From an uncultured Bacilli bacterium (GTDB lineage Bacteria > Bacillota_I > Bacilli_A > RF39 > UBA660): DNA of 33,654 bases. Below, one piece after another: positions 20,990-29,172 of this stretch. A program made the translations under genes and the position numbers. The DNA is taken from positions 1-33,654 of the forward strand of contig CALVWP010000054.1 of NCBI GenBank assembly GCA_944367495.1, read 5' to 3'. Every line of letters begins with the position of its first letter. Position 1 is the stretch's first letter. The notes under the pieces were generated by a model. That model saw nothing but the letters and a program-made list of their open reading frames with translations, had not been told where the DNA came from and did not search any database.

Positions 20990-21078
20990 ATGTGTAGATC
21001 TCCATCTACAACCGCACAAAAAAGGTTTTAAAAGGAAATTCCTACCTTAATGGCGAGTCTTAGTTTAATAAAGGAGGT
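20990..21078 (+). ncRNA. Ribosomal protein L21 leader (cis-regulatory)
   Basis: The untranslated leader between the promoter and rplU is structured. A perfect 6-bp hairpin (20994-20999 with 21004-21009, loop CTCC) is followed by the AACCGCAC box at 21010-21017. An imperfect second hairpin follows (21022-21026 with 21044-21048, inner 21033-21036 with 21040-21043). Position and the AACCGCAC element fit the Firmicute L21 leader, thought to be bound by L21 for autogenous control. I matched it from memory, not by covariance search. Confidence 0.6.
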
Positions 21079-21968: not shown

Positions 21969-22000
21969 TAAAAAATTACAATATGTAAAGTAAAAGTTGA

Positions 22001-22045
22001 AACAAGTGATTTATCAAAAATATTACTTGTTTTTTTTTTTTTTTT
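22001..22045 (+). terminator. Terminator of the rplU operon
   Basis: A 10-bp stem (22001-22010 with 22022-22031, one G-T pair) is followed by a run of 16 T from 22030, the strongest T tract in the window. Confidence 0.85.
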
Positions 22046-22086
22046 ATTTATACTGGTTATATAAAATAAAGAAAGTAGGGAAAAAT

Positions 22087-23358
22087 ATGCATAAAAGATT
22101 AAGTAGGACGCAGAGAAATTATATAATAATAGGGCTGTGTGCAGTACTGTTAATTATGACTGTAGGTTATGCGGCCTTTCAAAGTCAACTTAAAATAACT
22201 GGTACATCTAATATAGGAAGTAATTTCTTAGCTAGAATAACTGGTATACAAAGTGATGTACAAAGTGGGAGTGCAAGTGATGCAACAACCCCATCGTATA
22301 CAGATACAACCGCTACTTTTAAAACAAATTTAGTATCACCCGGAGATTCGATGAAATATGATATAACAGTAGCTAATGAGGGAAATATTGATGCTGTTTT
22401 AAATAGTATAAAAGTAAGTAATTCAAATAATGAAGCTATAACGTTTGAGACCAGTGGAATAGAAGAGGGAGATGAATTAAAAGCATCAGAGACTGATATA
22501 TTAACGGTAATCGTAACTTATAACCCAAGTATTACAAGTCAACCAGAAATTACTACTGCCACAATTACTGTAACTTTAGATTATGGACAAAGTAATGGAA
22601 CAGTAACCCCACCAACACCATCTGGAATTACTTCAGATGATTTAAAAGCACTAGCTGTTACCGAGGGAGACGGGTTATATCAAGATGAATATGAAAGTGG
22701 TAGATTCATTTATAAAGGTGCCAATCCAAATAACTATATAACTTTTAACAATGAAACATGGCGAATACTTTCTATAGAAGCCGATGGAAGAATAAAAATA
22801 ATGCGAAATGAAAGTATAGGAAATAGAGCATTTGATTCAGGAGGAAGTAATGCATGGGAAACATCAGATATAAAGACATATTTAAATGGAGAGTATTTAG
22901 AGACTATAACAGTAAATAAAGATAAAATAGTACCTAGTACATGGAGTATAGGGGGAGTAACTTCTGATAATAATGATTTAGCCGGTCAAATAACAGCTGA
23001 AAATGGAACGCAATCACAGACAGCCAGTGTAGGATTAATTACAGCCAGTGAGTATTTAAGGGCTAATACCAATAAGGAACAATGTGGAAGTATTAGTTTA
23101 AATGATGATAACTATAGTACATGTAAAACAACGAATTGGTTATTTAAGGGAGACCATTATTGGACAATATCGCCTACTGTCAGTTATTCTGGCAATGTCT
23201 TTCTTGTGTTCAGCAACGGCAAAATGTATAGCACTCTCAACGCGCATTTTACTTATGCGGTTCTTCCCGCCATTACTCTAAGCTCTGATATCAGCTTGAG
23301 TGGAAGTGGAGAAGCTGGAGATCCATTTGTATTATCACCAATTGGGGATAATATATAA
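22087..23358 (+). CDS. SipW-type exported surface protein with variable-looking C-terminal domain
   Basis: This 423-residue protein has a short basic N-terminus, a membrane/signal segment (about 12-28; LLIMTVGYAAF) of the SipW-dependent type, and a TasA-like beta domain (about 35-175). That domain has TATFKTNLVSPGDSMKYDI and NEGNIDAVLNSIKV, shared with the protein at 32391. After a TPPTPSG linker comes a second domain (about 195-410) starting GDGLYQDEYESGRFIY and NNETWRILSIE. It ends in a WTISPTVSYSGNV stretch and AVLPAITL, where related proteins usually have a GVRP-type phrase. The C-terminal domain looks like the DUF6273 / C-type-lectin-like tail of many gut Firmicute surface proteins. Codon use changes sharply at 23170-23301. 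A cysteine pair lies in QCGSISLNDDNYSTC. No LPXTG-like sorting signal. ATG 22087 follows AGTAGGG. Confidence 0.75.
   Translation: MHKRLSRTQRNYIIIGLCAVLLIMTVGYAAFQSQLKITGTSNIGSNFLARITGIQSDVQSGSASDATTPSYTDTTATFKTNLVSPGDSMKYDITVANEGNIDAVLNSIKVSNSNNEAITFETSGIEEGDELKASETDILTVIVTYNPSITSQPEITTATITVTLDYGQSNGTVTPPTPSGITSDDLKALAVTEGDGLYQDEYESGRFIYKGANPNNYITFNNETWRILSIEADGRIKIMRNESIGNRAFDSGGSNAWETSDIKTYLNGEYLETITVNKDKIVPSTWSIGGVTSDNNDLAGQITAENGTQSQTASVGLITASEYLRANTNKEQCGSISLNDDNYSTCKTTNWLFKGDHYWTISPTVSYSGNVFLVFSNGKMYSTLNAHFTYAVLPAITLSSDISLSGSGEAGDPFVLSPIGDNI
23170..23301 (+). other. C-rich, NNY-codon segment: candidate diversified (DGR-type) variable region
   Basis: This 3' segment of the surface-protein gene differs from its flanks. 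In the 43 codons from 23173 only two end in A (AAA, CTA), while the codons before and after use A-ending forms heavily. By hand count 34 of about 130 bases are C, against 7 of the 60 bases at 23041-23100. Codons such as GTC, TAT, TTT, CTT, TTC, CTC and CAT sit where AAY codons would give an Asn-rich template. The segment ends in AVLPAI, like the ends of C-type-lectin variable repeats. No reverse transcriptase or template repeat lies in the window. Confidence 0.45.
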
Positions 23359-23814: not shown

Positions 23815-24000
23815 ATGAATAACAAAGGTCAAGCCTTAGTAGAATATTTATTAATCATAGCAGTAGTTAGTGTAATTGTTGTTAGTTTAGTAAAGCTATT
23901 AGGTGGTTATCTTCAAGACTCAATGACTAAGACATCTTGCAAACTTATAGATAAAGAATATGTTGAAGGGTCTGAACCCGGCAAGGGAACTTGTCAATAA
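23815..24000 (+). CDS. Flp/TadE-like small pilin
   Basis: This 61-residue protein starts MNNKGQALVEYLLIIAVVSV. It has a short positive leader ending in Gly, a Gln-Ala-Leu-Val-Glu-Tyr motif with Glu at +5 after cleavage, and then a single hydrophobic helix. This is the class III prepilin signature of Flp and Tad pilins, cut by a prepilin peptidase. The short outer tail carries a cysteine pair (CKLIDKEY and GKGTC), which could form a disulfide. No Tad ATPase, TadB/C or peptidase gene is in the window. ATG 23815 fits the GGAGGG site better than the upstream in-frame GTG. Confidence 0.75.
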   Translation: MNNKGQALVEYLLIIAVVSVIVVSLVKLLGGYLQDSMTKTSCKLIDKEYVEGSEPGKGTCQ

Positions 24001-24021
24001 GATAATTTATTATCTTTTTTT
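23999..24021 (+). terminator. Terminator after the Flp-like pilin
   Basis: A 7-bp stem (23999-24005 with 24010-24016), TTTA loop and T run. It starts in the stop codon of the pilin. Confidence 0.65.
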
Positions 24022-24037
24022 GTCTGGGAGTGATGAT

Positions 24038-24409
24038 ATGAAAAAATTGAAGAAAGAAAATTGGCCTATTTATTTAATTTTAAATATTTTGACTTTAGGT
24101 TTTTATACATTTTATATAGCTTATAGACTTGATTTATATGAAAAAGATGCTTGGTATCACCGATGGTATTATTGGGTATTAGGTTTTATATGTGGTATTA
24201 TTCCGGGTATAGTGATGTTTTTGATATTTTCGGTTAAAATAGGATGTTTAGTGAGTGCGAAGTTAAAGGTGCCGGGGGATGAGATATATAGCTTTCCATA
24301 TGCTTGGATTTTATGTACGATAGTGCCAATATTAGGCTGGGTTTTGTTTATTATTTTATATGTTTATGTACATATTTGGTATGTTTTTAAAATAAAAAAT
24401 GAGCTTTAG
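24038..24409 (+). CDS. Small polytopic membrane protein, unknown
   Basis: This 123-residue protein has about three to four hydrophobic segments (about 9-29, 44-66, 82-110) and aromatic-rich loops (WYHRWYYWVLGF). It begins with a basic MKKLKKENWP tail. It resembles small Firmicute membrane proteins with a TLGFYTFYIAYRL first helix, a pattern seen in DUF4234-like proteins, but I would not name the family. The ATG at 24038 follows GGGAGTGAT. Part of its leader is the pilin terminator, so readthrough or its own weak promoter must drive it. Confidence 0.7.
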   Translation: MKKLKKENWPIYLILNILTLGFYTFYIAYRLDLYEKDAWYHRWYYWVLGFICGIIPGIVMFLIFSVKIGCLVSAKLKVPGDEIYSFPYAWILCTIVPILGWVLFIILYVYVHIWYVFKIKNEL

Positions 24410-24442: not shown

Positions 24443-25513
24443 ATGGATGTTTTTGATATTTACGGTTATACAAAAGAAGAAAAAATGAGAATTTTAAATA
24501 ATCAAAAAATAAATAAGCATAATTTTGAGACTGTTAAAAATAATGCGATTAAGCTTTTTAATTTTTTTGAAAATAAAGGTTATAATAATAGGCAAATTAT
24601 TAAAATGACGGCTCTTTTACCATCATTATTTAATTATTCATTAGATACTTTAAATAAGAAATATGCATTTTTAAAGGAACTTGGGTATACTGATGAAGAG
24701 TTATTTAACATGGTATTAATTTCACCATCTATTTTAATTATAAGTTCCCCAAATATTTTAAATAAATTTGAATATTTTAAAAGCTTAGGTTATACTCAAA
24801 AAGATATTCATAGGATGACGGTATTAACTACTAGTTTATTTAATTTGGCGATAAGTTCACTTGATGGAAAAAGAAATTTATTTAAAGGCTTAGGATTAAA
24901 TGATAAAGAGATTAATAAAATCACTAAAGAGATTCCTTCTTTATATACTCATAGTTTAGAAAGGTTAGAAGAAAAGGTTAGTTATTTTAAAACTTATGGT
25001 TATAGTGATGAGAGAATATGTAAGATGATTTTAAGATGCCCAAGTATTTTAGCTATGAGTTTAGAGAAACTAGAAGATAAAAAAGATTATTTACTATCTT
25101 TAGGTTATAGTATCTCAAATATTAAATATATGTTTGGAGTAAATCCGATTGTTTTTGTTCTTAGTGAAGAAAATATTAAAAATAAATTTAAATTTTTTGT
25201 GAATTATGGTTATACTGATGAAGAAACAATAAAAATAACCAGCAAGATGCCTGTAGTTTTTAATTATTCTGTAGATATTTTGAGTGAAAAACTTGATGTT
25301 TTAAAAAGTAAAAATTTAACAGACGAAGTTGTTAGAAAGCCAGCTTATTTGATGCAAGGAGTTAACCTTTCTTATGTTAGATTGAAATTTTTTGAAGAAA
25401 GCGGTTTTACTTTAGATCATAAAATGTTTAATTTACTTTTGATAGATAATAAACATTTTACAAAAAGATTTGGTTATAGTAATGAGGAGTTAAAGAAAAA
25501 ATATTTGAGATAA
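24443..25513 (+). CDS. mTERF-like helical repeat protein
   Basis: This 356-residue protein consists of a tandem helical repeat with an exact 35-residue period. The Gly of the GYT/GYS turn is at 46, 81, 116, 151, 186, 221 and 256, with a degenerate unit at 291. The Pro of the next turn is at 60, 95, 165, 200, 235 and 270, with Thr at 130. Each unit reads as lysine-aromatic helix, GY(T/S)DEE, Met-rich helix, Pro-Ser-(I/L)-L, then a Ser-Leu-Glu-Lys helix. That is the mTERF (PF02536) motif, known best from mitochondrial and plastid nucleic-acid-binding factors. No signal peptide or membrane segment, so it is cytoplasmic. By family it would bind DNA or RNA, but its role here is unknown. nusB follows 69 bases later from its own likely promoter. 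Confidence 0.75.
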   Translation: MDVFDIYGYTKEEKMRILNNQKINKHNFETVKNNAIKLFNFFENKGYNNRQIIKMTALLPSLFNYSLDTLNKKYAFLKELGYTDEELFNMVLISPSILIISSPNILNKFEYFKSLGYTQKDIHRMTVLTTSLFNLAISSLDGKRNLFKGLGLNDKEINKITKEIPSLYTHSLERLEEKVSYFKTYGYSDERICKMILRCPSILAMSLEKLEDKKDYLLSLGYSISNIKYMFGVNPIVFVLSEENIKNKFKFFVNYGYTDEETIKITSKMPVVFNYSVDILSEKLDVLKSKNLTDEVVRKPAYLMQGVNLSYVRLKFFEESGFTLDHKMFNLLLIDNKHFTKRFGYSNEELKKKYLR

Positions 25514-25557: not shown

Positions 25558-25566
25558 TGTTATAAT
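25558..25566 (+). promoter_or_regulatory. Possible extended -10 promoter of nusB-xseA-xseB
   Basis: TGT precedes TATAAT (25561-25566). The -35 is poor (TTTAAC at 25535, spacer 20). The predicted start is only about ten bases from the nusB ATG, so the leader would be very short. Confidence 0.4.
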
Positions 25567-25582: not shown

Positions 25583-25990
25583 ATGGCGGAAAATCGTAGC
25601 GAACTTAGAAAAAAATGTATGACAGTTTTATATCAATTAATTATTTATGACAAAAATCATTTAGATTATAATGTGGATGAAGTGATAGCTGAGGTGTCAC
25701 CGGTTGATAATGAATTTGTCAAAGAAATTGTTTATGGAGTTTTAACATATAAAAATGAGATTGATGTATTAGCTAACCAATATTTAGATGACTGGATTAT
25801 TGATAGACTTGGAAATACTGATATTGCAATACTTAGAATGGGAATTTTTGAACTTTTATATACGAAGACACCATCTGTTGTGGTTATTAATGAAGCGGTA
25901 GAATTAGCTAAATCTTATAGTGATGATAGTGTTAGGAAAATGATTAATGGTGTTTTAGATAAGATTTATCACGAGAAGGTGCTAAAGTGA
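25583..25990 (+). CDS. nusB: Transcription antitermination factor NusB
   Basis: NusB joins NusE (S10) on boxA RNA in antitermination of rRNA operons. The all-helical 135-residue protein has the family segments [15 protein letters not shown] at the start, [10 protein letters not shown], and [19 protein letters not shown] followed by [17 protein letters not shown] 25583 with an upstream GGTGAT is preferred to the in-frame GTG 25574. The stop overlaps the xseA start (GTGA), so nusB, xseA and xseB form one unit as in Bacillus. Confidence 0.95.
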
Positions 25991-27258
25991 ATGATAAATA
26001 TTTAACTGTTAGTGCTATTACGCGTTATTTAAAAGCTAGATTTGATTGTGACGAAAATTTACAAACAGTTTTTTTAAAAGGTGAAATTTCGAATTTTAAG
26101 GCTCATACTTCTGGACATTTTTATTTTTCTTTAAAGGATGAAAATTCGAAAATAAATGCAATAATGTTTAGAGGAAATGTTAGTAAAATTTTATTTAAAC
26201 CAGCTGACGGGATGAAAGTTTTAGTAACTGGAAGAATCAGTATATATGAGGCGATGGGAAGTTATCAGATATATGTCGATGAGATGTTAGAAGATGGAGT
26301 TGGCAATTTATATGTGGCTTTTGAACAACTTAAGAAGAAATTAAAAGAAGAAGGGTTGTTTGACAAGGCACATAAGAAAGCAATTCCAAAAATTCCTAAA
26401 AAAGTGGGAATTATAACGGCTAGTACGGGAGCTGCCATTAGAGATATTATGACGACAATTAAAAGACGTTTTCCTATTTGTGAAACAATATTATTTCCAA
26501 CATTAGTTCAAGGCGAAAACGCTAAAAACGATATTGTAAAAAATATAAAAAAAGCGCAGGATTATGATATAGATGTACTTATTGTTGGACGTGGTGGTGG
26601 ATCGATTGAAGATTTGTGGCCATTTAATGAGGAAATTGTTGCTAGGGCTATTTATGATAGTAAAATTCCGGTTATAAGTGCGGTTGGGCATGAGGTAGAT
26701 TTTACGATTGCTGATTTTGTGGCTGATTTAAGGGCGCCAACGCCAACGGCGGCAGCGGAGATGGCTGTTCCAAATATGAGTGATTTAAAAAAACATATTA
26801 GTCAGCTTTCAATTAGGTTAAATGAAGCTGTTTATAAAAAAATTAATTATTTAAAATTATATTTAGATTCTGTTAAAAATTCTTTTGTGATTAAAAATCC
26901 AAAGGTTATGTTTGAAAGTAAGAGACAAAGTTTAGATTTAATTAATGTAAAATTAGATGATTTAATATTTGGTAAAGTAGAAAAGTTAAGAGGAGATTTA
27001 GAAAGAATTAAAAAAAGTTATATTTTAGAAAACCCTAATTTTTTATACAAAGATAAGACTATTTATTTACAAAATATTATTCATAAATTAGAACTTTTAA
27101 ATCCTTTAAAAATTTTAAAAAGAGGTTATAGTATTACTTATTTAAATGGTAAAGCAATGAAGAGTATAAAAGAGGTTAAAGAAAATGATATTTTAAATAT
27201 CAGATTAACTGATGGGCAAATAGAGACTAAAGTAGTAGGAATTAAGGAGGAAAGTTAA
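25987..27258 (+). CDS. xseA: Exodeoxyribonuclease VII large subunit
   Basis: XseA is the catalytic subunit of the single-strand exonuclease VII used in mismatch and crosslink repair. The 423-residue protein has an N-terminal OB fold (about 1-105; [20 protein letters not shown]), a catalytic core with [15 protein letters not shown], the [16 protein letters not shown] motif and [28 protein letters not shown]-terminal coiled region follows. The start is GTG 25987; the ATG at 25991 is out of frame. Confidence 0.97.
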
Positions 27259-27508: not shown

Positions 27509-27544
27509 TCTTAAAATGTGATATTATTATTATAGGTGATAGGT

Positions 27545-27907
27545 ATGAAAAAGGGTTTTACTTTGGCGGAATTACTTGGAGTGATAGCAATACTTGGAAT
27601 TATTGCTTTAATTACGGTACCGGCTATTAATAGATCGCTTTCTCAAAGCAGGGAGGAGTTATATAAAACACAGATCGAACAGTTAGAAAAAGGAGCTCAA
27701 GATTATTATACAGAGCATTTGGATGAAATGCCGTCAGTAGTTGGAGAAGATGCTTGTAAAACGATAGATGAACTTCAAAAGAATGGTTATTTACCTTTAG
27801 ATATTAAAAATCCTAAAACAGATAAAGTATTTCCCCTTACGACAAAAGTATGTGTTTTGAAAAAAACAGCAATGGAATACGATTATGAGGTGAGGGAAAG
27901 TGAATAA
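27545..27907 (+). CDS. Type IV prepilin-like protein (1)
   Basis: This 120-residue protein begins MKKGFTLAELLGVIAILGII, the type IV prepilin N-methylation motif: cut after Gly4, Phe at +1, Glu at +5, and then a long hydrophobic helix. A globular outer domain of about 90 residues has one cysteine pair (EDACKT and TKVCVL). It is probably a minor pilin or pseudopilin. ATG 27545 follows an AGGTGATAGGT site. The last eight bases overlap the next prepilin gene. I see no prepilin peptidase, ATPase or secretin-like gene in the window. Confidence 0.85.
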   Translation: MKKGFTLAELLGVIAILGIIALITVPAINRSLSQSREELYKTQIEQLEKGAQDYYTEHLDEMPSVVGEDACKTIDELQKNGYLPLDIKNPKTDKVFPLTTKVCVLKKTAMEYDYEVRESE

Positions 27908-28334
27908 AAAAGGTTTTACGTTAATTGAATTATTAGCAGTGATTGCGATTATTGCGGTGATTGCGGTGATTACAGTGCCGATTATTACAAATGTAATTCA
28001 AACTACTAGAGAAAATGCTTTTAAAGATACAGCTTATGGTTTAGTTCAAGCAGCTGGAACATACCAAGCGGAAAGACAGGCTTTGAAAGAAGATGCTACG
28101 TTACTTATTAATTATCAAACAAGTTCAGAAAGTGATAAAGAATTATTGAGAACTAATGGTCAGCTTCCTGATGCGGGTGAGCTTATGATAGATGATAATG
28201 GTAAGGTTACTTTGGCTTTGTGGAGTGATGATGTACATGTTTGTGTTGTTAAAGAAGCAAGTTCAAAGGAAGTTAAGATAAACGAAAATATTACTGAAGC
28301 GACAAGCTGTGTGATTGCAAATATAAATAAATAA
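27900..28334 (+). CDS. Type IV prepilin-like protein (2)
   Basis: This 144-residue protein begins MNKKGFTLIELLAVIAIIAV with the standard prepilin cleavage and methylation site. The hydrophobic core repeats VIAIIAVIAVITVP. The outer domain has a cysteine pair (DDVHVCVVK and ATSCVIA) near the C-terminus. Start GTG 27900 follows GAGGTGAGG; the overlap with the previous prepilin gene suggests coupled translation. Together the pair probably forms part of a pilus or secretion pseudopilus. Confidence 0.87.
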   Translation: MNKKGFTLIELLAVIAIIAVIAVITVPIITNVIQTTRENAFKDTAYGLVQAAGTYQAERQALKEDATLLINYQTSSESDKELLRTNGQLPDAGELMIDDNGKVTLALWSDDVHVCVVKEASSKEVKINENITEATSCVIANINK

Positions 28335-28347
28335 GGAGCTGGATTTA

Positions 28348-29172
28348 ATGCTTAGAAGATTTACCATAGGACAAGTAATCATTTTTGGTTTAATTGTTAT
28401 AGCGGTTATATGTACTTTACTTTTATTCGGTAAAGGTGTAAAAAAAGCAAATGAGCCAAAAGAGGTGTTACAAAATACGAATGTAGTAAACGATGGTATA
28501 TCTTTTTTTGTTAATGGCAATTATGTAACTTATTTAAAAATCAACGAGGAATATACCGAAGAGGGTGTAACGGCTTATGTCGATGGAGTAAATAAAAACG
28601 ATGAGGTAATTATTTCTTATTTTGAAAATGGTAAGCAAGTAAGTCAGATTGATACTAGTAAATCAGGTGTTTATAAGGTTAAATATGAACTTGATGCTGG
28701 CGGGTTAAAACAAGCTATGCGAATACTGATTATTAGTGATGATGAAGATCCACATTTAGTGATGCCAGAGACAGTGACTATTACGAGCGCTGAGGCAAGG
28801 ACGTATGATGTAAAAGAGGGGGTTATAGCAACAGATAATTCAGGAAAGGTGAGCTTTTCTTGTGAAAATACTTTAAAAGAAAAACCGGGAGATTATGTAA
28901 TTAAGTGTAGAGCCGTTGATAGTAATGGTAATATAACTGAACTTAATAGGCTTATTAAAGTGGTTGAGGGAATTTTATTTGAATATCAAGGTGGTCTTAA
29001 GATAAATTTTCCTAAAGATAAAAACTATACTTATATGTATAGTTTGGATGGCGGTAAAACATTTACGGAAACTTCTGATGAAGTATTTATTGGAAAGGTT
29101 AAAGGCAATGTTATTGCTTTGGTTTTAGCAGATGATAATTATGTGATGTCGGAAACTTATTATGTAAAATAG
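28348..29172 (+). CDS. Membrane-anchored protein with Ig-like/DUF5011-type domains
   Basis: This 274-residue protein has one N-terminal membrane segment (about 9-28) and an outer part of beta-rich repeats. One domain (about 50-130) starts with the KINEEYTEEGVTAYVDG phrase typical of DUF5011/bacterial Ig-like modules. A second (about 140-208) has a cysteine pair (SFSCENT and VIKCRAV) and the VDSNGNITEL phrase. A tail of about 65 residues with YSLDGGKTFTE looks like another beta domain. It follows the two prepilins by 13 bases, so it may be an accessory of the same surface structure. No sorting signal. Confidence 0.75.
   Translation: MLRRFTIGQVIIFGLIVIAVICTLLLFGKGVKKANEPKEVLQNTNVVNDGISFFVNGNYVTYLKINEEYTEEGVTAYVDGVNKNDEVIISYFENGKQVSQIDTSKSGVYKVKYELDAGGLKQAMRILIISDDEDPHLVMPETVTITSAEARTYDVKEGVIATDNSGKVSFSCENTLKEKPGDYVIKCRAVDSNGNITELNRLIKVVEGILFEYQGGLKINFPKDKNYTYMYSLDGGKTFTETSDEVFIGKVKGNVIALVLADDNYVMSETYYVK

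Follow-up and report, generated by a model that had tools for sequence, protein, structure and literature searches.

An mTERF-superfamily protein with exact 35-residue repeats encoded upstream of nusB in a lineage of uncultured Bacilli

What is a protein built of mTERF-like repeats doing in a bacterium, in a position next to the transcription antitermination gene nusB? The mTERF proteins, recorded almost exclusively from mitochondria and chloroplasts, hold on to DNA or RNA there to control genes, and we know of no settled origin for them. In 2014 mTERF genes were described as apparently absent in prokaryotes (PMC3981765), but in 2024 Hu et al. described two proteins from bacterial MAGs, mostly of Bacillota, named pTERF1 and pTERF2, that bind specific DNA, with a Kd of 1.87 nM in the case of pTERF1 (PMC11417379). 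Bacterial mTERF-like proteins as such are thus already known. Our literature search found no paper on bacterial mTERF proteins beyond pTERF, and nothing on the host MAGs or on the contact residues of MTERF1. The gene analysed in this study lies within a 33,654-nucleotide stretch of DNA from an uncultured Bacilli bacterium, hereafter referred to as the window.

The mTERF open reading frame starts with ATG (Table 1), and no open reading frame is present on the opposite strand across it. The preliminary description had reported Gly and Pro residues recurring at a period of exactly 35, and the residues stand precisely where it had placed them, with Gly at positions 46, 81, 116, 151, 186, 221 and 256 and Pro at positions 60, 95, 165, 200, 235 and 270, the Pro at 130 being replaced by Thr. 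The periodicity is far above that of shuffled sequences, as the self-identity at lags of 35, 70 and 105 residues is 0.21-0.24 vs a maximum of 0.13 at the same lags in 2000 shuffles. After locating the repeats across the bacterial members by a position-weight scan, the spacing between successive repeats was found to be exactly 35 in 187 of 204 cases among the related bacterial proteins, so that the period characterizes the family and is no accident of a single sequence. Besides the seven exact repeats, the window protein carries one degenerate C-terminal repeat, and within the C-terminal cap the residues L303, Q305, R313 and F339 are invariant among 27 diverse bacterial members.

Table 1. Features of the mTERF gene and its neighbours (positions are those of the window)
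Feature	Position	Strand	Basis
Small hydrophobic protein, upstream neighbour conserved at the slot	23960..24409	+	Synteny; no Pfam match
mTERF-family protein, 356 aa, predicted pI 9.2	24443..25513	+	PF02536 E=4.7e-38; AlphaFold pLDDT 93.1; orthologues in 17 other genomes of the genus
Degenerate N-terminal repeat, residues 8-45, starting at G8-Y9	24464..24577	+	Sequence; model helices 11-18 and 28-44; G8 and Y9 identical in all orthologues
35-residue mTERF repeats, seven in tandem, residues 46-290 (105 nt per repeat)	24578..25312	+	Family repeat model; helix pattern every 35 residues in the model
C-terminal cap, residues 291-356, containing residues invariant across the family	25313..25510	+	Alignment with the C-terminal region of human MTERF1
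TGTTATAAT, extended -10 element of the nusB promoter, between the mTERF gene and nusB	25558..25566	+	Shortly before nusB in almost every member of the genus, mTERF present or absent
nusB	25583..25990	+	PF01029; start from promoter position
xseA, exonuclease VII large subunit	25987..27258	+	PF02601

The family had been assigned by motif alone, and this assignment is borne out by profile searches. In the Pfam scan the window protein matched PF02536 with 131.3 bits (E=4.7e-38) against a gathering threshold of 23.1 bits, no other family, including other helical repeats, scored above its own cut-off, and no TALE family was found among the matches at E<=10; other helical repeat families were accordingly rejected as the identity of the protein. 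No NCBIfam model matched it. Human MTERF1, MTERF3 and MTERF4, together with one mitoribosomal mTERF, were the only strong matches in a sequence search of the PDB, where all matches at E<0.01 are mTERF proteins except for a designed toroid that was found by the profile alone. A profile of 27 bacterial members aligned with human MTERF1 at E=5.3e-23 in a single colinear alignment, in which profile positions 58-345 correspond to MTERF1 chain 36-338 and the C-terminal element is included. The mTERF motif has been defined as a Pro followed by Leu or another hydrophobic residue at +3, +10 and +17 (X3LX3 heptads; PMC11417379), and this canonical motif, with Pro and hydrophobic residues at the same spacing, is present in the bacterial family, for which the repeat consensus reads roughly GYSxEEIxKMTxxxPxIFxYSxENLxxKxxYLxxL. 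Among 244 bacterial repeats, position 15 is Pro in 86%, position 18 is F, Y or L in 84%, position 25 is L or I in 87% and position 32 is L or F in 80%, and the window protein itself carries Pro in six of its seven repeats. The protein is hence a genuine bacterial member of the mTERF superfamily, well beyond a resemblance in motif.

The model of the window protein, built by AlphaFold2 with 17 orthologues, is confident (pLDDT 93.1) and agrees with the mTERF solenoid, each repeat being modelled as a helix, a short helix beginning at the Pro and then a longer helix. By this prediction some eight helical repeats of 35 residues build a solenoid that ends in a C-terminal cap, and the protein is basic overall. 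The best Foldseek matches to the model were MTERF1, MTERF3, a Tetrahymena mitoribosomal protein and MTERF4. With VIA-align the model gave Z of about 23 over 307 residues against MTERF1 on its termination DNA, with an rmsd of 5.6-5.9 A, a large value that flexible solenoids allow, yet one that leaves the predicted curvature unsure; the match to MTERF3 gave Z 19.3 and an rmsd of 3.0 A over 251 residues. For the TALE-type proteins BurrH and dHax3 the values were Z 8-10.5 and rmsd 10-15 A, which may reflect only a common repeat arrangement, and BurrH was a distant Foldseek match (E=4e-4).

Matches to PF02536 were found in 24 of the 44 genomes of the genus, in 18 of the 145 family genomes (11 scoring above the cut-off) and in 25 of 241 genomes of the order (about 10%). 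In a sample of 392 genomes of the phylum, strong matches occurred only in the bacterial family of the window, and a class-wide profile search agrees with this confinement; the contig scan employed the close-relative alignment (A2), the all-member alignment (A1) being too divergent. Control genomes gave no PF02536 match. Weak matches in other Bacilli families were discarded, since the four inspected by eye (L191-L194) look unrelated, one of them being RuvA-like. The statement of the preliminary description that such a protein is unusual in a bacterium is right, although it has to be amended by the pTERF report of 2024. The named relatives are MAGs labelled "uncultured Bacilli bacterium". Contamination by eukaryotic DNA is excluded by synteny, as another 17 MAGs of the genus have the orthologue flanked by the same genes, and also by base composition. 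The GC content of the mTERF gene is 23% vs 29% in the neighbour genes. Carriage by phage or plasmid was rejected, as neither tblastn against phage, plasmid and viral collections nor a pattern scan of viral contigs detected an mTERF relative. The gene is a chromosomal gene of a small-genome Bacilli lineage, inherited within the genus.

The order small hydrophobic protein, mTERF, nusB and xseA, all on one strand, was found in 18 genomes including that of the window. Further away in the window lie a DUF6273 protein, two pilin-like proteins (one with a match to the N-methylation motif) and an Ig-like protein beside lexA (21997-23358 and 27536-29172), together with an L21 leader RNA (21000-21070). 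Proximity had earlier been taken to suggest a link of the mTERF to NusB. The gene order is indeed conserved, yet nusB-xseA carries a promoter of its own, an extended -10 element that is retained where the mTERF gene is absent; since this element ends 7 nt before GTG 25574, ATG 25583 is the likelier start of nusB as judged from the sequence. In the 20 genomes examined that lack an mTERF at this site, the site was found either empty or filled by genes for glycosyltransferase, phosphoesterase, nucleotidyltransferase or ABC-type ATPase, in the manner of an insertion slot. As transcription of nusB does not require the mTERF gene and genes unrelated to it occupy the slot elsewhere, a function with NusB is not supported, and an operon with nusB was rejected as the main reading.

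The mTERFs of the nusB site form one clade (support 97/99) except for that of locus L042, which groups with the glyS-linked paralogues at 100/100, indicating that a second mTERF reached the same site. In another genus (g65) an mTERF gene lies downstream of xseA (L056), and from these two cases the association with nusB and xseA arose more than once. Within the nusB-site set, the mTERF distances track those of NusB (rho 0.64) and XseA (rho 0.61), with the mean identity being 50% for mTERF vs 83-85% for NusB and XseA; the gap between 83% for NusB and 50% for the mTERF gives no sign of tight co-evolution. That the mTERF acts with NusB and XseA as a single operon in rRNA antitermination or repair is, in our judgement, very improbable, the conserved gene order and the repeated rise of the association being outweighed by the intervening promoter, the occupation of the slot and the disparity in identity. 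In one genome (G014) the nusB-site gene is split into two open reading frames on a low-coverage contig (L052 2124-2805), by error or as a pseudogene. A MAG that is 63% complete (G030) carries two nusB-mTERF loci (C13, C20), one near-identical to that of G033, and is probably a mixed bin.

New in this study is the finding that mTERF paralogues lie directly upstream of the aminoacyl-tRNA synthetase (aaRS) genes pheST, hisS, proS, glyS and tyrS. The arrangements are mTERF-mTERF-126aa-pheS-pheT (L117, L118), mTERF-hisS-aspS (L119, L124) and mTERF-proS (L059), the last two with a 4-nt overlap, recO-mTERF-glyS (L029, L047) and mTERFs-212aa-tyrS (L054). Other paralogues precede spoT/relA (L125) or a gene of the RNase HII family (L122) or follow ybeY (L058), and further neighbours are dinB, a sigma factor and HSP20. 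Five aaRS adjacencies among about 20 distinct loci exceed the expectation (P about 0.001-0.006, at a chance of 4-6% each and calculated post hoc). With Rfam at the gathering score, T-boxes were found at 15 of the 20 pheS loci from other genera, against none in genus g88, but the idea that the mTERF replaces the T-box at aaRS operons was rejected after a permissive threshold showed T-boxes upstream of mTERF-pheST (L138, L142, L145). The mTERF genes at pheST thus lie between the T-box leader and pheS, inserted behind the T-box and not instead of it, and from this gene arrangement they should be induced together with pheST when charged tRNA-Phe is short.

Two neighbours of the paralogues are worth recording. 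The gap between mTERF and pheS in genus g88 encodes a protein of 126-130 aa (L117 4644-5024 and relatives in L137-L150) without a Pfam match. In some species this protein gives a weak match to the mTERF profile (E about 1e-4 to 1e-5), and it is possibly a decayed mTERF. At L121 (5011-6033) a PIN-like nuclease domain fused to sigma-70 region 4 adjoins an mTERF gene.

Near-identical arrays of 35-residue repeats were found at four loci (L056 1-777, L059 74-979, L119 683-1480 and L120 5807-6553), that of L056 partly alternating as a 70-residue unit, and point to recent tandem duplication. The differences inside these arrays pile up at repeat positions 13, 14, 16, 19 and 20 (and 33-34). In one HMM alignment the MTERF1 residues R162, R169, R202, F243, R251 and Y288 map to repeat positions 13, 20, 16, 16, 24 and 24, respectively, and R350 maps to the position next to the Pro (Pro+1). 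Of these, R162, F243 and Y288 are named as MTERF1 mutants in PDB titles, and the arginines are reportedly among the contact residues in the DNA complex of Yakubovskaya et al. (2010). Between near-identical repeats, positions 13/16/20/24 show 63 nonsynonymous to 11 synonymous codon differences vs 175 to 171 elsewhere, counted over pairs that are non-independent, and the excess has the same direction in all five genera. Amino-acid change in fresh duplicates therefore concentrates at positions that match DNA-contact residues of MTERF1, which is likewise new in this study; positions 14, 19, 33 and 34 also diversify, though not predicted from the MTERF1 contacts. Among the nusB-site orthologues, in turn, positions 13, 19 and 20 tend to be kept for each repeat across species and to differ between repeats, the pattern to be expected of repeats that each read one fixed target. 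Positions 18, 29 and 31 follow the same pattern, which may be due to packing. Only four of the 28 residues at positions 13/16/20/24 of the window protein are basic (R174, R198, K209 and K268). Human MTERF1 is not like this, and the chemistry of contact must therefore differ between the two.

Taking these features together with the model, we consider the window mTERF to be probably a sequence-specific nucleic-acid-binding regulator of gene expression. The superhelix would wrap a specific nucleic-acid site, as other mTERF proteins do, and in each repeat the residues near the Pro (positions 13, 16, 20 and 24) would face the bases; double-stranded DNA is the likelier site than RNA, and once bound the protein would alter transcription by roadblock, termination or promoter interference. 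We infer the nucleic-acid binding, the preference for DNA and the transcriptional effect alike. RNA is nevertheless a live alternative ligand, because MTERF3 binds rRNA and plant mTERFs act on introns. If RNA were bound, the protein would hold rRNA, or a tRNA or mRNA leader, and aid ribosome assembly or translation in the way of MTERF3 and MTERF4, and the paralogues would act beside the translation genes encoded alongside. Such a role is consistent with MTERF3 being the best fold match by rmsd and MTERF4 being matched as well, with the placement of paralogues upstream of the aaRS, spoT/relA and RNase HII-family genes or adjoining ybeY, and between T-box leader and pheS at pheST, and with the binding of MTERF3 to 16S rRNA (PMC3536695). 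We hold it, however, to be doubtful, since the only prokaryotic relatives tested, pTERF1 and pTERF2, bind specific double-stranded DNA in vitro, one of them at nM affinity (PMC11417379), which by analogy favours the regulator, and the patchy occurrence in just over half of the genus genomes and about a tenth of those of the order misfits an essential ribosome-assembly factor.

Apart from the partnership with NusB set aside above, the mTERF genes might be selfish or cargo genes that rearrangements have carried into insertion-tolerant slots ahead of housekeeping operons, with no settled cellular role or with one in conflict with mobile elements. The patchy distribution, the variable positions, the tandem duplicates, the fragments with stops, the low GC content relative to the neighbours and the fast evolution all agree with this picture. 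It is nonetheless quite unlikely, as no relative was found in the phage, plasmid or viral collections, and the supported clade at the nusB site, the distances tracking those of NusB and XseA, and the repeat-specific residues kept across species argue for purifying selection for a defined function. The sequence-specific regulator is thus the reading that we prefer. As an extension, which we put forward only tentatively, the mTERF arrays of this Bacilli family may be evolvable modular readers of nucleic acid, in which exact 35-residue units multiply by head-to-tail duplication and then vary chiefly at the contact positions in a TALE-like manner, the genes being planted inside T-box-controlled aaRS operons and induced with them; they would form a regulatory system of bacteria with a target specificity reprogrammed by repeat duplication, and could be the source of the organellar mTERFs or a sister group to them. 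With its canonical motif, chromosomal location and near-perfect repeats, the bacterial branch offers a simple system in which to study how the repeats read nucleic acid, could show whether a residue-to-base code exists, and bears on whether the organellar proteins arose in bacteria or were passed on to them.

In comparison with known systems, the window protein shares with the mTERF superfamily (MTERF1, MTERF3, MTERF4 and the plant organellar mTERFs) the family score, the colinear C-terminal element, the Pro with X3LX3 heptads, the helical repeats and the solenoid fold, but it is bacterial and chromosomal, with no organelle involved, carries residues at the contact positions other than those of human MTERF1, and has strictly tandem repeats of exactly 35 residues, those of human and fly mTERFs having been described as interspersed (PMC11417379). 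Like pTERF, the window family comes from Bacillota MAGs and is built of mTERF-like repeats in tandem, which vary in number and have a three-helix unit. By its published description pTERF1 is set apart from the window family, which has the canonical Pro and heptad motif, for the conserved Pro and the leucine heptads are reportedly absent from pTERF1, whose identity to eukaryotic mTERFs is given as 9-18% (PMC11417379). With TAL effectors and the BurrH/Bat proteins the window protein has in common tandem repeats of 33-35 residues, which in those proteins read DNA; the comparison is one of working principle only, as there is no TALE sequence match and the structural Z is at most 10.5 vs 23 for MTERF1.
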